Source: Alphaproteobacteria bacterium (lineage in GTDB: Bacteria; Pseudomonadota; Alphaproteobacteria; SMXP01). From it: a stretch of DNA of 64,000 bases. The stretch spans positions 62,001-126,000 of the forward strand of contig JANQPV010000044.1 in NCBI GenBank assembly GCA_028285305.1, given 5' to 3'. This document shows positions 12,125 to 21,142 of this stretch, one piece after another. The notes beneath the pieces were generated by a model, which saw only the letters and a list, made by a program, of their open reading frames with translations, was not told the DNA's origin and made no database searches. How positions within the stretch are numbered: position 1 is the first letter of the stretch; every line of letters starts with the position of its first letter. The translations under genes were made by a program, and so were the position numbers.

Positions 12125-12577
12125 AAGGGCCCGCCTCCCGATTCGACTCCCGGAACCCCAGGTAGGTCCACGCGATCCGAAGGATGGCTCTGGACGGGAC
12201 CCGATCCGACGCGATTCTTCTCTCTGCGTCTTGGTCCTTACGGATGGACGTGAGGGTCAAAAAGCCCCCAACTTCCGCCGCTTTTCCCGCCAAAAGGGAA
12301 ATTCTGTTAACAAAGGCAGAATCCATATTGACCTTTTTTCTGTCTTGGCCACTATATCTGGTATTGGCGAATTGGAGAGGCACCCGATCTAGGGGATCCA
12401 AATAAATACGGTAAATCGGCGGCAAGGGACATCTAAATATAGAATTTCTTGCATTTGGGGAAGTGATCAACACGCAAGCTGGTTTTGTGTGAATGCATCT
12501 CTGCGCCTTCAAGAGTGCAGGCCGTGAATTGGGTGGGCCGGTGCTTAGAGCATGTTGAGATTGGGAGAGTGTACATT
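12125..12577. promoter_or_regulatory. Long upstream region of nrdA with candidate promoter and NrdR boxes
   Basis: This 453-bp non-coding stretch precedes nrdA. A candidate -35 (TTGACC, 12328-12333) is followed by ACTATA at 12351-12356, 17 bases on. CTATATCTGG at 12352-12361 and CTAAATATAG at 12433-12442 match 8 and 9 of 10 positions of the core NrdR box CwAtATaTwG. Their 81-bp spacing is longer than the roughly 31 bp usual for NrdR pairs, so the call is tentative. I recognise no RNA gene in the first 200 bp. Confidence 0.4.
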
Positions 12578-14482
12578 ATGGGCGCATTGGAAGCCGTTGA
12601 TCAGGCATCGGTTGGACAGCACGGGGTCGAACAGCATCAGTTCGAACAGCCGAGGGCCAAACTAAAAACAGAGTCACGACTTAAGAAAGTCAGTGTCACC
12701 CGGAAATCCATCCGGTTGGAACATAGCCGCGATGAGCTGTTGACTGCTTTCGGGAAGGCCACACTTGAGGACCGGTATTTATTGCCAGGCGAATCCTACC
12801 AGGACATGTTCGCCCGTGTCGCTCAGGCCTACAGCGATGATAGTGACCATGCACAGCGTATCTATGACTATATCTCCAGGCTTTGGTTCATGCCCGCCAC
12901 ACCCGTTTTGTCGAACGGTGGCACGGAACGAGGGCTTCCTATTTCATGCTTTTTGAATTCAGTTGGCGATAGTTTGGATGGCATCGTCGGGACGTGGAAC
13001 GAGAATGTGTGGCTGGCGTCCAACGGCGGTGGAATCGGAACCTATTGGGGCCGGGTGCGCTCCATTGGTGAGAAAGTAAAGGGAAGCGGCGAGACGTCGG
13101 GGATCATTCCGTTTGTTCGCGTTATGGATTCTCTCACGCTCGCGATCAGTCAAGGCTCGTTGCGGCGTGGCTCGGCGGCAGTCTACCTTGATGTCTATCA
13201 TCCGGAGATTGAGGAGTTCCTTGAAATCCGCAAGCCGTCCGGCGATTTCAACCGCAAGAGTCTCAATCTGCATCACGGGATTAACATCACAGACGAATTC
13301 ATGGAGGCCGTGCGCGCAAACGAGCAGTTTGCGCTGAGAAGTCCCAAGACGGAAGAAGTGATCCGCTACGTCAGTGCACGGAATTTGTGGCAAAAGATTC
13401 TCGAGGCCCGTCTGCAAACGGGAGAGCCCTATTTGATCTTTTCGGATACGGTGAACCGCTCTATGCCGAAACATCAAAGGGAGTTGGGGCTAAAGTGCAC
13501 GACCTCGAATCTGTGCAGCGAGATCATGCTCCATACCGGGCCCGACCATAAGGGCGTTGACCGTACGGCTGTGTGCTGTCTGTCGTCGATCAATGCCGAA
13601 AAGTATTTTGAATGGTCGCAGGAACCCATGTTCATTGAGGATGTGATGCGGTTCCTCGACAATGTGTTGGAAGACTTTATTCGGCGGGCACCCGAAACCA
13701 TGAACGCGGCGCGATACTCGGCGATGCGCGAGCGGTCCGTCGGTCTGGGCCTTATGGGATTTCATTCGTTCTTGCAGTCTCAAGGCATCCCCTTCGAAAG
13801 CGCGATGGCAAAGAGCTGGAACTTGAGGTTCTTTAAACACATTCGCCAGGGCGCGGACGAGGCGAGCCTGAAACTGGCGCAAGAGCGTGGCCCTTGTCCG
13901 GATGCACAAGATCGGGGACTTCACGCCCGCTTCAGCCACAAGCTGGCCATCGCGCCTACGGCGTCGATCAGCATTATTTGCGGTGGGGCGAGCCCTTGCG
14001 TCGAGCCGATTCCGGCTAATATCTATACGCACAAGACTCTGTCAGGTTCGTACACAGTGAAAAACTCACACCTTCACGAACTATTGAAAGACAAAGGTCA
14101 TGACACTGAAGAGGTTTGGGCGTCGATTCTTGAGAACGACGGTTCGGTCCAGCATCTGGATTGCCTGAGCGACGACGAGAAAGCGTGTTACCGGACCGCG
14201 TTTGAAATTGATCAGCGTTGGATTGTCGATTTTGCGGCCGACCGGGCGCCGCTGATTTGCCAAGGCCAATCGATCAATCTTTTCTTGCCGGGTGACATCG
14301 AGAAGTGGGACCTGATGATGCTCCATTGGTCCGCTTGGGAGAAAGGTGTAAAGAGCCTCTACTATTGCCGTTCCAAGTCCGTACAGCGTGCCGCGTTTGC
14401 CGAAGGGACAAGCCGTGCGGAGGCCGAGCCAACAATCTCTACGCCGCGCACGGATTACGAAGAGTGCTTGGCTTGCCAATAA
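12578..14482 (+). CDS. nrdA: Ribonucleoside-diphosphate reductase, alpha subunit (class I)
   Basis: This is the catalytic subunit that reduces ribonucleotides for DNA synthesis. The 634-residue protein has the redox cysteine C124 in LPISCFLNS and the NxCxE motif NLCSEI (N311, C313, E315). Its partner cysteine is C334 in VCCLSSIN, and a C-terminal CxxC pair lies in ECLACQ (C630, C633). The ATG at 12578 is preceded by GGGAGAG. The N-terminus is a short Gln/His-rich stretch and not an ATP-cone, so the protein seems to lack the dATP activity-inhibition site of classical class Ia enzymes. nrdB follows 175 bp downstream. Function is certain; the allosteric point is inferred. Confidence 0.95.
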   Translation: MGALEAVDQASVGQHGVEQHQFEQPRAKLKTESRLKKVSVTRKSIRLEHSRDELLTAFGKATLEDRYLLPGESYQDMFARVAQAYSDDSDHAQRIYDYISRLWFMPATPVLSNGGTERGLPISCFLNSVGDSLDGIVGTWNENVWLASNGGGIGTYWGRVRSIGEKVKGSGETSGIIPFVRVMDSLTLAISQGSLRRGSAAVYLDVYHPEIEEFLEIRKPSGDFNRKSLNLHHGINITDEFMEAVRANEQFALRSPKTEEVIRYVSARNLWQKILEARLQTGEPYLIFSDTVNRSMPKHQRELGLKCTTSNLCSEIMLHTGPDHKGVDRTAVCCLSSINAEKYFEWSQEPMFIEDVMRFLDNVLEDFIRRAPETMNAARYSAMRERSVGLGLMGFHSFLQSQGIPFESAMAKSWNLRFFKHIRQGADEASLKLAQERGPCPDAQDRGLHARFSHKLAIAPTASISIICGGASPCVEPIPANIYTHKTLSGSYTVKNSHLHELLKDKGHDTEEVWASILENDGSVQHLDCLSDDEKACYRTAFEIDQRWIVDFAADRAPLICQGQSINLFLPGDIEKWDLMMLHWSAWEKGVKSLYYCRSKSVQRAAFAEGTSRAEAEPTISTPRTDYEECLACQ

Positions 14483-14509
14483 CGGCGTTCGAATTGAATT
14501 AAGCCGCTT

Positions 14510-14555
14510 GCCCTCTCCCCGGCCGAGTCAAACAAAGTTGGGGAGAGGGCATCTT
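14510..14555 (+). terminator. Hairpin between nrdA and nrdB
   Basis: GCCCTCTCCCC at 14510-14520 pairs perfectly with GGGGAGAGGGC at 14540-14550 across a 19-base loop, and ATCTTTT follows. It could terminate part of the transcription after nrdA or protect the 3' end of an nrdA message. It would thereby set the ratio of alpha to beta subunit. Confidence 0.6.
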
Positions 14556-14657
14556 TTCCGATTTACAAACAGGCACGGCGGGGAAACGATCATTGGTTTG
14601 ATTATGTCTGCGAATCGAGAAACACTCTCTGTTCTTGTCTTCTCATAGGAACTCTAC

Positions 14658-15692
14658 GTGTCTACTTTGTCCGGTCTCCTTGCTCCGTCCCACTCCTACA
14701 AACCTTTCCGCTATCCTTGGGCGTTTGACTATTGGAAGCGGCAGCAGCAAGTCCATTGGATGCCGGAAGAAGTGCCACTCGGTGACGATTGCAAAGACTG
14801 GGCGAACAAGCTGTCGGATGCCGAGCGGAATCTCCTGACACAGATCTTTCGTTTCTTTACTCAGTCGGATGTCGAAGTGAACGACAACTATATGGAGCGC
14901 TATGGCCGCGTCTTCAAACCGACCGAAGTGAAGATGATGATGTCGGCCTTTTCCAACATCGAAACGATCCATATCGCGGCTTACGCTTTGCTGCTTGAAA
15001 CGATCGGTATGCCGGAGACGGAGTTTTCCAGTTTTCTGGAGTATGAAGAGATGGCGGCAAAGCATGATTACATGCAGCGATTTTCCGTCGACACGGAACC
15101 GGATATTGCCCGCACACTGGCGATGTTTGGAGCGTTTACGGAAGGTTTGCAACTGTTTGCCAGCTTCGCGATGCTTCTCAACTTCCCGCGGCACAACAAG
15201 ATGAAAGGGATGGGTCAGATCGTTTCTTGGTCCGTGCGCGATGAGAGCTTACACTGCGAGGCCATGATCAAGCTGTATCATACGTTTGCCAAGGAAACCG
15301 GTTGCGTTACACCACCTGTGAGGGACGACATCGTTGACTGCGCGAAAACCGTTGTTGGTCTTGAGGACAAGTTCATCGATCTCGCCTTCGAAATGGGCGA
15401 TGTCGAAGGGATGAGAGCGGACGATATCAAGACCTATATTCGCTATATCGCCGATTGGCGCCTGTCCCAACTCGACCTCCCCAAAATCTATGGCGTCGAG
15501 AAGCACCCGTTGCCATGGCTGACAGAGATTCTCAATGGCGTTGAGCACGCCAACTTCTTCGAAACGCGGGCAACGGAGTATTCCAAGGCGGCGACAAAAG
15601 GGGAGTGGCATGGCGGCGAGGGCGTTTGGGCCGCCTTTGACTCCATTCAACAAAAACAAGACAGCGAGCCGGTTCACTCTGAACCCGCCTAG
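14658..15692 (+). CDS. nrdB: Ribonucleoside-diphosphate reductase, beta subunit (class I)
   Basis: This subunit houses the di-iron centre and tyrosyl radical that start catalysis in NrdA. The start is a GTG with AGGA upstream, giving 344 residues. Visible metal ligands are D71 in QSDVEV, then E102 and H105 in IETIHIAAY. The radical tyrosine is Y109, with the same E-x2-H-x3-Y spacing as E115-H118-Y122 of the E. coli protein. The second helix pair contains EGLQLF and RDESLHCEAM. Keeping Tyr argues against the Tyr-less class Ic type. The N-terminus has no ATP-cone. Confidence 0.95.
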   Translation: MSTLSGLLAPSHSYKPFRYPWAFDYWKRQQQVHWMPEEVPLGDDCKDWANKLSDAERNLLTQIFRFFTQSDVEVNDNYMERYGRVFKPTEVKMMMSAFSNIETIHIAAYALLLETIGMPETEFSSFLEYEEMAAKHDYMQRFSVDTEPDIARTLAMFGAFTEGLQLFASFAMLLNFPRHNKMKGMGQIVSWSVRDESLHCEAMIKLYHTFAKETGCVTPPVRDDIVDCAKTVVGLEDKFIDLAFEMGDVEGMRADDIKTYIRYIADWRLSQLDLPKIYGVEKHPLPWLTEILNGVEHANFFETRATEYSKAATKGEWHGGEGVWAAFDSIQQKQDSEPVHSEPA

Positions 15693-18285: not shown

Positions 18286-20973
18286 CTATTTGACAAGTGT
18301 ACGGACTTCATCGCCCGTCAGTTCTTGCCTTTCCATCAAAACGCTCGCGACTTTCTTGAGCAGTCTCTGATTGTTCTTCAGACGGCTGACTGCTTCGCGA
18401 TAGAGCGTATCCAAGAGCTTGTTGAGTTCCTCTCGGATCTCGGGCGGTGTCGGGAGAAGACCGCCGATTATTTTGTCTACGTCGTACCAAACGAGTCCGG
18501 ACGATTCCGAGTAGCCGTGTTGGTAAAGGGCCCGCAAGAGGATATGGGTCGCTTGGGCGAGATCGGATCGAGCACTGCCACCTGACCCCGTGCTGACTTC
18601 GCTTTTGCCGTAGGTTACCTCTTCGGCGGCGCGCCCGCCAAGGGCAACGCGGACATATTCATAGATGTCGTCGCGCGTGGCGCTGGTCCGGTCATTGAAC
18701 GAGGCGACGAAGCCAAGAGAGCCATCTGCACGGGGAACAATCGAGATATAGGTGATTGAAGCGCCCTTTTCCGGGCCGGCGAGCTGCATGACCGCGTGGC
18801 CCGCCTCGTGAATAGCGGTTCGCCGTAATTCCTCGTCGGACAAGCGCTGATAGTCACTGTCGCTGAGAGGCCGGCCGGTGATTTCTGCAACAAAGTCTTC
18901 GTACACGATGGAGCGGCGTTCCTTGCGGGCACGGCGGCGGGCGCCGCGGACATAGAACTCGACGTCGGCGCCCGTTTGACCAAGGGTCATACGGCCGAGG
19001 GTCTTTGTGTCGATGTCTCCCGAGACGAGACCTTCGGTCCGCAACTCCTCAATGTAATACTCAAAGATCTGCTCAAGGCCCAATGCGTTTGGAAGAGGGA
19101 TCCGAATGATTTGATCGAGCCTGCCGGCGCGCTTGAGCGCTGGGTCGATGGCATCAGGGTTGTTCGTGGCGGCGATGACGATCACACCGCTGCGTTCCTC
19201 AAATCCTTGGAGCTCCTGGAGCATCGTGTTGACGATGTCGTTCACGTAGAGATTGTTGACGCCGTGATCGTGTTGGCGATTGCCGATCGAGTCAAACTCA
19301 TCGATGAATGCAATGGTCGGCGCCAGGCGCCGGGCCTCCATGAAAAAATTGCGGATAGCCGCAATGTGCGTTGAGATATAGCGGGTCGAAAACCACTCCG
19401 ACGTGGAGCCATAGAGGAACCGGAGACCGGTATCTTTCGAAACGGCTCGTGCCAGCATCGTTTTTCCGGTTCCCGGCGGCCCCACCAGCAGCATGCCTTT
19501 ATCCACCTCGGACCACGAGATGTGACCGGAGGCGGCAAGCTTTATGTCTGCCACCAGCTCCTCAGCTTGAACTTTGGCCTCTCCCAGTCCATGGATATCG
19601 GTCAAGCCCGGTGCATTCATCGCATTTGTGTTGGAGAGGCGCCGCTCGACTCGTGCCTTGAGATCGTGAACGGCGTCTCTGCCTCGTTTTCCGGAGTTGA
19701 CAATCTTTTGCAGGTCAAGTGGTACGACATAGCGGGCCCACGCGTCGTCTTCATTGTCGCCGGCGGCTTGTGGACCGAAGATGGCTGTGAATATTTTGTC
19801 GCGTACAGATGAATGGAGTTGGGGCAGTTCAATTTCCACATCGACATGATCGCGAAACAGTGTGGGCAGTGCATATCGGTTGGCGAGAACGCATAGGCCG
19901 ATGACGTTTGACGTGGCTAGGTTCGAAATCGCTTGCCTGACCCAGTCTTGGTTGAGATCCCGCCCGGCGCCAAAGATGCTGTCGTCGAACAGCACGAGCC
20001 TTTCCGTAGCTGAAAACTCTTCTATGCCGTAGGCGCCAAACGCGCGTCCTGCTGACGAGAAGGGGATTGCCAATTGTTCGGCCAAATATTTGCCCAGCGT
20101 CTCAGAGAGCTCCCAAAACGATGTTTCTATGACAATCAGTGGACGGTGCGTCTTGACTCTCTCCAAGAAGAGCGACCAGGTGGTGTCCGACGACGCGCGT
20201 TCCAGTTGATTTGTCGCGGTCGGGTCCAATAGATTGAGATTGCCTACCGCTTCCCTAAGGAGCACCTCGGACATTGTCTCTGTCACACTCACCCGAGGGA
20301 GTTCGGTGACCGGCGCAAGGGCGGAAGCCGTTTGCGTCTCGCGCTCAAGTTTGGCAACGGCTGGTGAAGCATCAAAATCTGATGCTGATAAAACGGTGTT
20401 CACGCTACCCGTGACCACTCCAATGGGTTCCCAAGGGCAAATTGGTTCATCAGTTAGAAGTTTTGAAATCGCAGATTGAAAATCTGTGTGCAAATAAAAC
20501 TCTCTTACGCCGATGCTCACTCGTTCGAGATCAAAAAAAATCAGCGTATGATCTTTGTACTTACGCTTTGCTTTCCGGGGGATGTCCGCTTGGTTTTCGT
20601 ACCAGAGTTTCAGTGACCGGCGTTCCATCCTATCGGCGATGTCTGAAAGCGAGCCGCGCTTGGCTGATGCGTTCGTGGCGCGGGGAGTGATTTCATAGCG
20701 CTGTGCGAAAGAATTGTCCGGTGGGATGTCGTGCTCCGCAACGATGGACAGGAGAGCTTCCGTGGATAGAAATCCTTCTCCCGATTCGATTTCGAACAGA
20801 CCAGAAAACGCCGCGTCAGGCTGGGACGCCCTTACTGTTCGCAAGCGCGTGAGCACCTCTTCAATGTAGTAGCTCTCTTCGCGATCGGATTCCAGCGCGA
20901 TATCTTGTGCCAAGCTGCGCGAGATGATGCTGCGATGATCGGGAACATGGAAGACCAATGTGTAATTTTTCAA
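18286..20973 (-). CDS. FtsH-like AAA+ zinc metalloprotease (M41) with long soluble N-terminus
   Basis: This is an ATP-dependent zinc protease. The C-terminal half holds one intact AAA+ module: Walker A GPPGTGKT at about 498-505, Walker B IAFIDEFD at 554-561, and the second region of homology DPALKRAGRLDQ. An M41 peptidase domain follows with HEAGH at 722-726 and the third zinc ligand D804 in SDLAQATH. The first ~455 residues have no membrane helix and no FtsH periplasmic domain. Residues ~275-395 look like a degenerate ATPase-like fold (HRPLIVIETSFWELSETLG, RLVLFDDSIFGAG). I prefer the TTG at 20973 because GAGGAA lies five bases upstream; a GTG at 20991 has no ribosome-binding site. Substrate unknown. 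Confidence 0.85.
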   Translation of the reverse strand: MKNYTLVFHVPDHRSIISRSLAQDIALESDREESYYIEEVLTRLRTVRASQPDAAFSGLFEIESGEGFLSTEALLSIVAEHDIPPDNSFAQRYEITPRATNASAKRGSLSDIADRMERRSLKLWYENQADIPRKAKRKYKDHTLIFFDLERVSIGVREFYLHTDFQSAISKLLTDEPICPWEPIGVVTGSVNTVLSASDFDASPAVAKLERETQTASALAPVTELPRVSVTETMSEVLLREAVGNLNLLDPTATNQLERASSDTTWSLFLERVKTHRPLIVIETSFWELSETLGKYLAEQLAIPFSSAGRAFGAYGIEEFSATERLVLFDDSIFGAGRDLNQDWVRQAISNLATSNVIGLCVLANRYALPTLFRDHVDVEIELPQLHSSVRDKIFTAIFGPQAAGDNEDDAWARYVVPLDLQKIVNSGKRGRDAVHDLKARVERRLSNTNAMNAPGLTDIHGLGEAKVQAEELVADIKLAASGHISWSEVDKGMLLVGPPGTGKTMLARAVSKDTGLRFLYGSTSEWFSTRYISTHIAAIRNFFMEARRLAPTIAFIDEFDSIGNRQHDHGVNNLYVNDIVNTMLQELQGFEERSGVIVIAATNNPDAIDPALKRAGRLDQIIRIPLPNALGLEQIFEYYIEELRTEGLVSGDIDTKTLGRMTLGQTGADVEFYVRGARRRARKERRSIVYEDFVAEITGRPLSDSDYQRLSDEELRRTAIHEAGHAVMQLAGPEKGASITYISIVPRADGSLGFVASFNDRTSATRDDIYEYVRVALGGRAAEEVTYGKSEVSTGSGGSARSDLAQATHILLRALYQHGYSESSGLVWYDVDKIIGGLLPTPPEIREELNKLLDTLYREAVSRLKNNQRLLKKVASVLMERQELTGDEVRTLVK

Positions 20974-21142
20974 AGTTATTCCTCGTGGCACGGTGAACGC
21001 ACAAGCGTATTCAAGTGGGAATGCTTGCCCAGATCAAGTCCCCAACGCAGGCAATGTGCGCTATTGGGTAACTGCTTTTTGAATAGGCAGATAGCATTGA
21101 CAGTTTTCTGGCCCTCGCTCTCTCGTCGGGTTAGAAGGACGT

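Follow-up and report, generated by a model that had tools for sequence, protein, structure and literature searches.

A candidate soluble FtsH-related protease of Alphaproteobacteria with a predicted inactive AAA+ domain in front of its active ATPase

We describe a gene in an alphaproteobacterial genome, found within a DNA stretch of 64,000 nucleotides (the window), whose product is probably an FtsH-related zinc protease of the AAA+ type, located in the cytosol and composed of N-domains, a dead AAA+ domain (D1) that would serve as a ring or assembly platform, an active AAA domain (D2) and an M41 peptidase. FtsH-type proteases are membrane enzymes. In the product of this gene, judged from its sequence, the catalytic motifs of D2 and M41 are intact and the membrane anchor is absent, and the dead AAA+ domain is predicted to lie directly before the active AAA domain and to follow a possibly duplicated N-domain. 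More tentatively, and with somewhat less conviction than we would need to call it the favoured view, the protein and its relatives could form an undescribed clade, a soluble one-chain bacterial analogue of a p97-like unfoldase plus protease, in which a ring of dead ATPase domains replaces the membrane anchor as the assembly platform.

The gene occupies positions 18286..20973 of the minus strand and encodes 895 amino acids followed by a stop codon. The longest open reading frame begins at an in-frame GTG at position 20991, 18 bases upstream of a TTG at 20973. Since a GAGG motif is located 7 bases before this TTG, and full-length orthologues begin at the same point, the 895-residue product is the likely protein, and the residue numbering of the initial annotation is valid.

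Searches of the 895-residue protein against Pfam identified an AAA domain (PF00004; E = 6.5e-34, 117.7 bits against a cut-off of 21.2) and a Peptidase_M41 domain (PF01434; E = 7.6e-28, 98.1 bits against a cut-off of 29.9). The active AAA domain (residues 460-700; 18874..19596, minus strand) contains a Walker A motif, GPPGTGKT, at 498, a Walker B motif, FIDEFD, at 556, sensor 1, AATNN, at 601, and arginine fingers in KRAGRLDQ. These elements, including the second region of homology, mark it as a classical AAA ATPase, and Cdc48 was its closest sequence match in the PDB. The peptidase domain (residues 714-895; 18289..18834, minus strand) carries HEAGH at 722-726 and the third zinc ligand, D804, within SDLAQAT; the HExxH motif, the distal Asp ligand and the score above the Pfam cut-off place the protein in peptidase family M41. 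The catalytic half of a full-length structural model matched FtsH structures with an E value of 2e-21 in Foldseek, and structures of Ycf2-FtsHi/FtsHi were also among the matches of this half.

No transmembrane segment was found in a 19-residue hydropathy scan over the whole protein, in which the highest mean value was 1.13, compared with approximately 2.4 in the two FtsH-type proteins of the same genome. The initial annotation had described a complete AAA+/M41 half lacking a membrane helix, and the Pfam matches, the motifs and the hydropathy profile together confirmed this description. The score of the protein against the FtsH equivalog model TIGR01241 was 258.9 bits, below the curated cut-off of 600, and the pore loop FVG of FtsH is absent, with EWFSTRYIS found in its place. 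On the combined evidence of the missing anchor, the score under the cut-off and the different pore loop, the protein falls outside FtsH proper. The same genome encodes two further M41 proteins, in open frames of 641 and 652 amino acids and both with strongly hydrophobic segments, so that the protein described here is an extra M41 protein of a genome already provided with two of the FtsH type. The second membrane-type paralogue (the 652-residue frame) is found at G000:C4:63173-64483, besides the main FtsH, and several other genomes of the class also carry at least two M41 genes.

The N-terminal extension, put at about 455 residues in the initial annotation, comprises some 459 residues, and relatives belonging to three further genome families show conservation along its length. 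Searched by itself, this N-terminal part gave no Pfam match at E<=10, and no PDB sequence was found with a profile of the N-terminal alignment. We rely, for the fold of its second part, on an AlphaFold2 model of residues 1-459 built from a 7-sequence alignment, with a mean pLDDT of 78, since a sequence-profile match of this part to active AAA domains was not significant (hhalign, P = 0.3). In the model, residues ~262-452 show the element order of an AAA+ domain: a helix (262-276), a strand (279-283), a helix (287-301), two strands (305-307 and 325-329), a helix (342-354), two further strands (357-363 and 379-382) and then the lid helices (389-452). Foldseek listed 50 PDB matches to this model, every one of them an AAA+ ATPase, with probabilities of 0.98-1.00 and E values from 9e-5; they included FtsH, Vps4, RuvB, p97, spastin, proteasome ATPases and a clamp loader, with TM-scores by target of up to 0.49. 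The viral-library matches of the same model were mostly AAA+ ATPases as well. The secondary structure of the model places these matches at residues ~228-452, and the prediction supports an AAA+ fold, with core order and helical lid, for residues ~262-452. An ATPase-like fold lacking Walker motifs had been suggested for residues 275-395; structure prediction of the N-terminal part returned an AAA+ fold there, rather than none, and residues 275-395 correspond to the large subdomain of a domain which reaches ~452.

This pseudo-AAA+ domain (residues 228-455; 19609..20292, minus strand) has lost its catalytic residues. The Walker A position reads IVIETSFW, and none of the six full-length proteins of the long form has a GxxxxGK[ST] before residue 498, the active P-loop. 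The Walker B position is degenerate, reading VLFDD in the window protein and SRR in one relative, as are the arginine-finger positions. A sensor-1-like Asn365 is invariant across the aligned long proteins, and the residues that follow it, N-R-Y-A-L-P-T-L-F-R-D-H-V-D-V-E-I-E-L-P, read as a worn-down second region of homology from which the arginine fingers have gone. The protein has two AAA domains in tandem, as in type II AAA proteins, the first assigned by prediction and the second by sequence.

Residues 1-212 were modelled by AlphaFold2 as two beta-beta-alpha-beta-beta-alpha units. The first (residues 1-95; 20689..20973, minus strand) has no Pfam match, and the second (residues 125-212; 20338..20601, minus strand) has the same order of elements. 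In hhalign the two units could be aligned along their length, with 2 of 100 column shuffles scoring as high. The N-domain may be internally duplicated, as the predicted secondary structure suggests and the sequence weakly supports. The structural matches listed for the model all fell to the AAA+ part and gave these units no fold assignment.

An orthologue search, called for in the initial annotation, recovered the full architecture from six other alphaproteobacterial genomes, which brings the families represented, including that of the window, to four. At the threshold used, matches were present in 7 of 385 genomes sampled across the class, namely the window genome and six more, which are spread over three other families and include a protein that is only partly sequenced, and the gene was not found in any of the four family mates sampled. 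A pattern-based scan of GTDB contigs gave six loci, all in metagenome-assembled genomes of Alphaproteobacteria; five were the same full-length proteins as those of the genome search, and one was partial. The long relatives are 25-33% identical to the window protein in the N-terminal part and 41-45% identical over full-length proteins.

Further relatives were detected by tblastn on plasmids of Bosea, Azospirillum, Methylorubrum, Bradyrhizobium, Rhodovastum, Shinella, Rhizobium, Paracoccus and Sulfitobacter. The plasmid proteins are ~570-890 amino acids long and annotated as 'AAA family ATPase'. The short forms (e.g. WP_174757081.1 and WP_049832758.1), which come mostly from alphaproteobacterial plasmids, resemble the long form in being soluble, in their AAA and M41 halves and signature pore loop, and in having an N-terminal region that is degenerate, but lack its first ~200 residues, the N-domains. 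In the five short forms examined, no clear transmembrane segment was seen (hydropathy 1.26-1.67), and their N-terminal region aligned with the pseudo-AAA domain of the long form (hhalign, P = 0.0024). In a tree of the catalytic halves, for a sample chosen by similarity and with several long terminal branches, the soluble proteins were split from FtsH (support 100/100), and long (95/97) and short (96/94) forms made up two separate groups. When a short form was searched against 142 genomes of the class (E<=1e-70), only long-form proteins came back. In most members of the soluble clade, the pore loop contains a Trp and, after it, G[HA]L[GD] (W....G[HA]L[GD]) where FtsH has GS[DE]FVE[MV]FVGVGA, and the motif can be used as a signature of the clade. 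Enterobacterial plasmid matches resembled the relatives from residue 344 on, and the one inspected was an ordinary ftsH beside rlmE and folP. No relative was found in viral contigs with the protein query.

The protein could instead be an accessory protease that serves mobile elements, in defence or in plasmid functions for instance, and that reached this chromosome by transfer. In agreement with this, the short forms on plasmids have transposases, toxin-antitoxin genes, a KwaB-like gene and a TIR protein as neighbours, and the gene is absent from the four sampled family mates. We consider such a role and origin unlikely, because the plasmid collection itself biases the search toward plasmids, the long forms are found in chromosome-like contexts, and matches of the protein in PADLOC were set aside as generic AAA similarity. 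Moreover, the window neighbours are ordinary chromosomal genes: nrdA, nrdB, a UPF0176/rhodanese protein gene (trhO), an SDR gene, mscL, a GST gene and queG. Two further neighbourhoods were observed. On Hyphomicrobiales plasmids (L016, L018, L044, L047), a metallophosphoesterase gene is repeatedly located next to or near the short soluble M41 gene. In the window, the nrdA-nrdB pair (12485-15692) is separated from the gene by no more than 3 kb; at the orthologous loci L024 (4563-7462) and L025 (4581-7433) it directly adjoins the gene, and it was not seen near other orthologues. A link to ribonucleotide reductase was dropped, because the neighbourhood is shared only with L024 and L025, which are close relatives of each other; the proximity, observed in two lineages, is possibly an old gene linkage or chance, and is given as a lead.

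How might such a protein work? The reading of a cytosolic AAA+ protease is supported by the intact Walker A and B motifs, sensor 1, arginine fingers and zinc ligands together with the lack of a transmembrane segment. The order N-domain, pseudo-D1, D2, M41 is supported by the predicted AAA+ fold without a P-loop in six full-length long proteins, by the recurrence of the architecture in four genome families and by the match of the catalytic half to FtsH. The pseudo-AAA region common to the short relatives, and the separation of the clade from FtsH, also speak for this reading, which we regard as the most probable. The dead D1 domains would form a ring that needs no nucleotide and is stacked on that of the active D2 domains, and would take over the assembly role of the FtsH membrane segment; D1 and the N-domains could then choose soluble substrates and pass these by way of D2 to the M41 chamber. 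A precedent for D1 as a platform is found in Pex1/Pex6, where the D1 ring, though dead for ATP hydrolysis, mediates assembly and is in communication with D2 (PMC10518020). Against this explanation stand the low pTM of the full-length model (0.36), at which the placement of the domains relative to each other and the stacking of rings are not confidently predicted, the 7-sequence alignment, the non-significant profile match to active AAA domains, and the pore loop, in which the soluble clade does not conserve the aromatic residue of FtsH, a loss that sits uneasily with strong unfolding.

The pseudo-AAA+ domain could also be a folded docking or spacer domain in each subunit of a single-ring soluble FtsH, with the N-terminal part only binding an adaptor or substrate. 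The low confidence at which the linker around residues 447-466 is modelled agrees with this, as does the loss of the P-loop and arginine-finger positions, which hold nucleotide-dependent AAA rings together. We regard it as a serious but rather improbable alternative, since a complete AAA+ core with its lid is retained directly before the active AAA domain, just as D1 precedes D2 in p97-like proteins, and D1 rings that are nucleotide-independent or non-hydrolysing do exist (PMC10518020). The pore loop raises a different question. Across the soluble clade, the FVG of FtsH has given way to a longer loop of the W....G[HA]L[GD] type, and this could point to a protein that acts mainly as a scaffold or regulated unfoldase and whose proteolysis is weak or specialised, as in the plant FtsHi proteins. 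Nevertheless, the long proteins have kept the ATPase motifs and the zinc ligands, so that proteolysis appears to be under selection, and a role mainly as unfoldase or scaffold seems very unlikely.

The proposed N/pseudo-D1/D2/M41 protease can be compared with three known groups. FtsH and related AAA proteases (MEROPS M41, TIGR01241) are AAA-M41 fusions with the same motifs in both domains and ~35% identity over the catalytic half; unlike FtsH, the window protein has no transmembrane segments, and it has 459 extra N-terminal residues, including the pseudo-AAA+ domain, and a different pore loop. The FtsHi proteins and the chloroplast Ycf2-FtsHi motor are likewise FtsH-family proteins with degenerated parts. 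In these, however, protease activity has been lost and the role is that of a membrane motor, whereas in the window protein the protease motif is intact and it is the extra AAA+ domain that is dead. p97/Cdc48, NSF and Pex1/Pex6 have the order N-domain, D1, D2 proposed here, and in Pex1/Pex6 there is no ATP hydrolysis by the D1 ring (PMC10518020); however, these proteins have no fused peptidase, their D1 is less eroded than that of the window protein, and the corresponding stacking of rings is, for the window protein, our inference. A description of the N/pseudo-AAA+/AAA/M41 architecture was not found in the open-access literature, which is weak evidence of novelty.

A clade that has no membrane anchor and carries a dead ATPase module instead would represent a second way of building an FtsH-type machine, in which the contributions of a membrane anchor and of a non-hydrolysing D1 to assembly and to the choice of substrate become testable.
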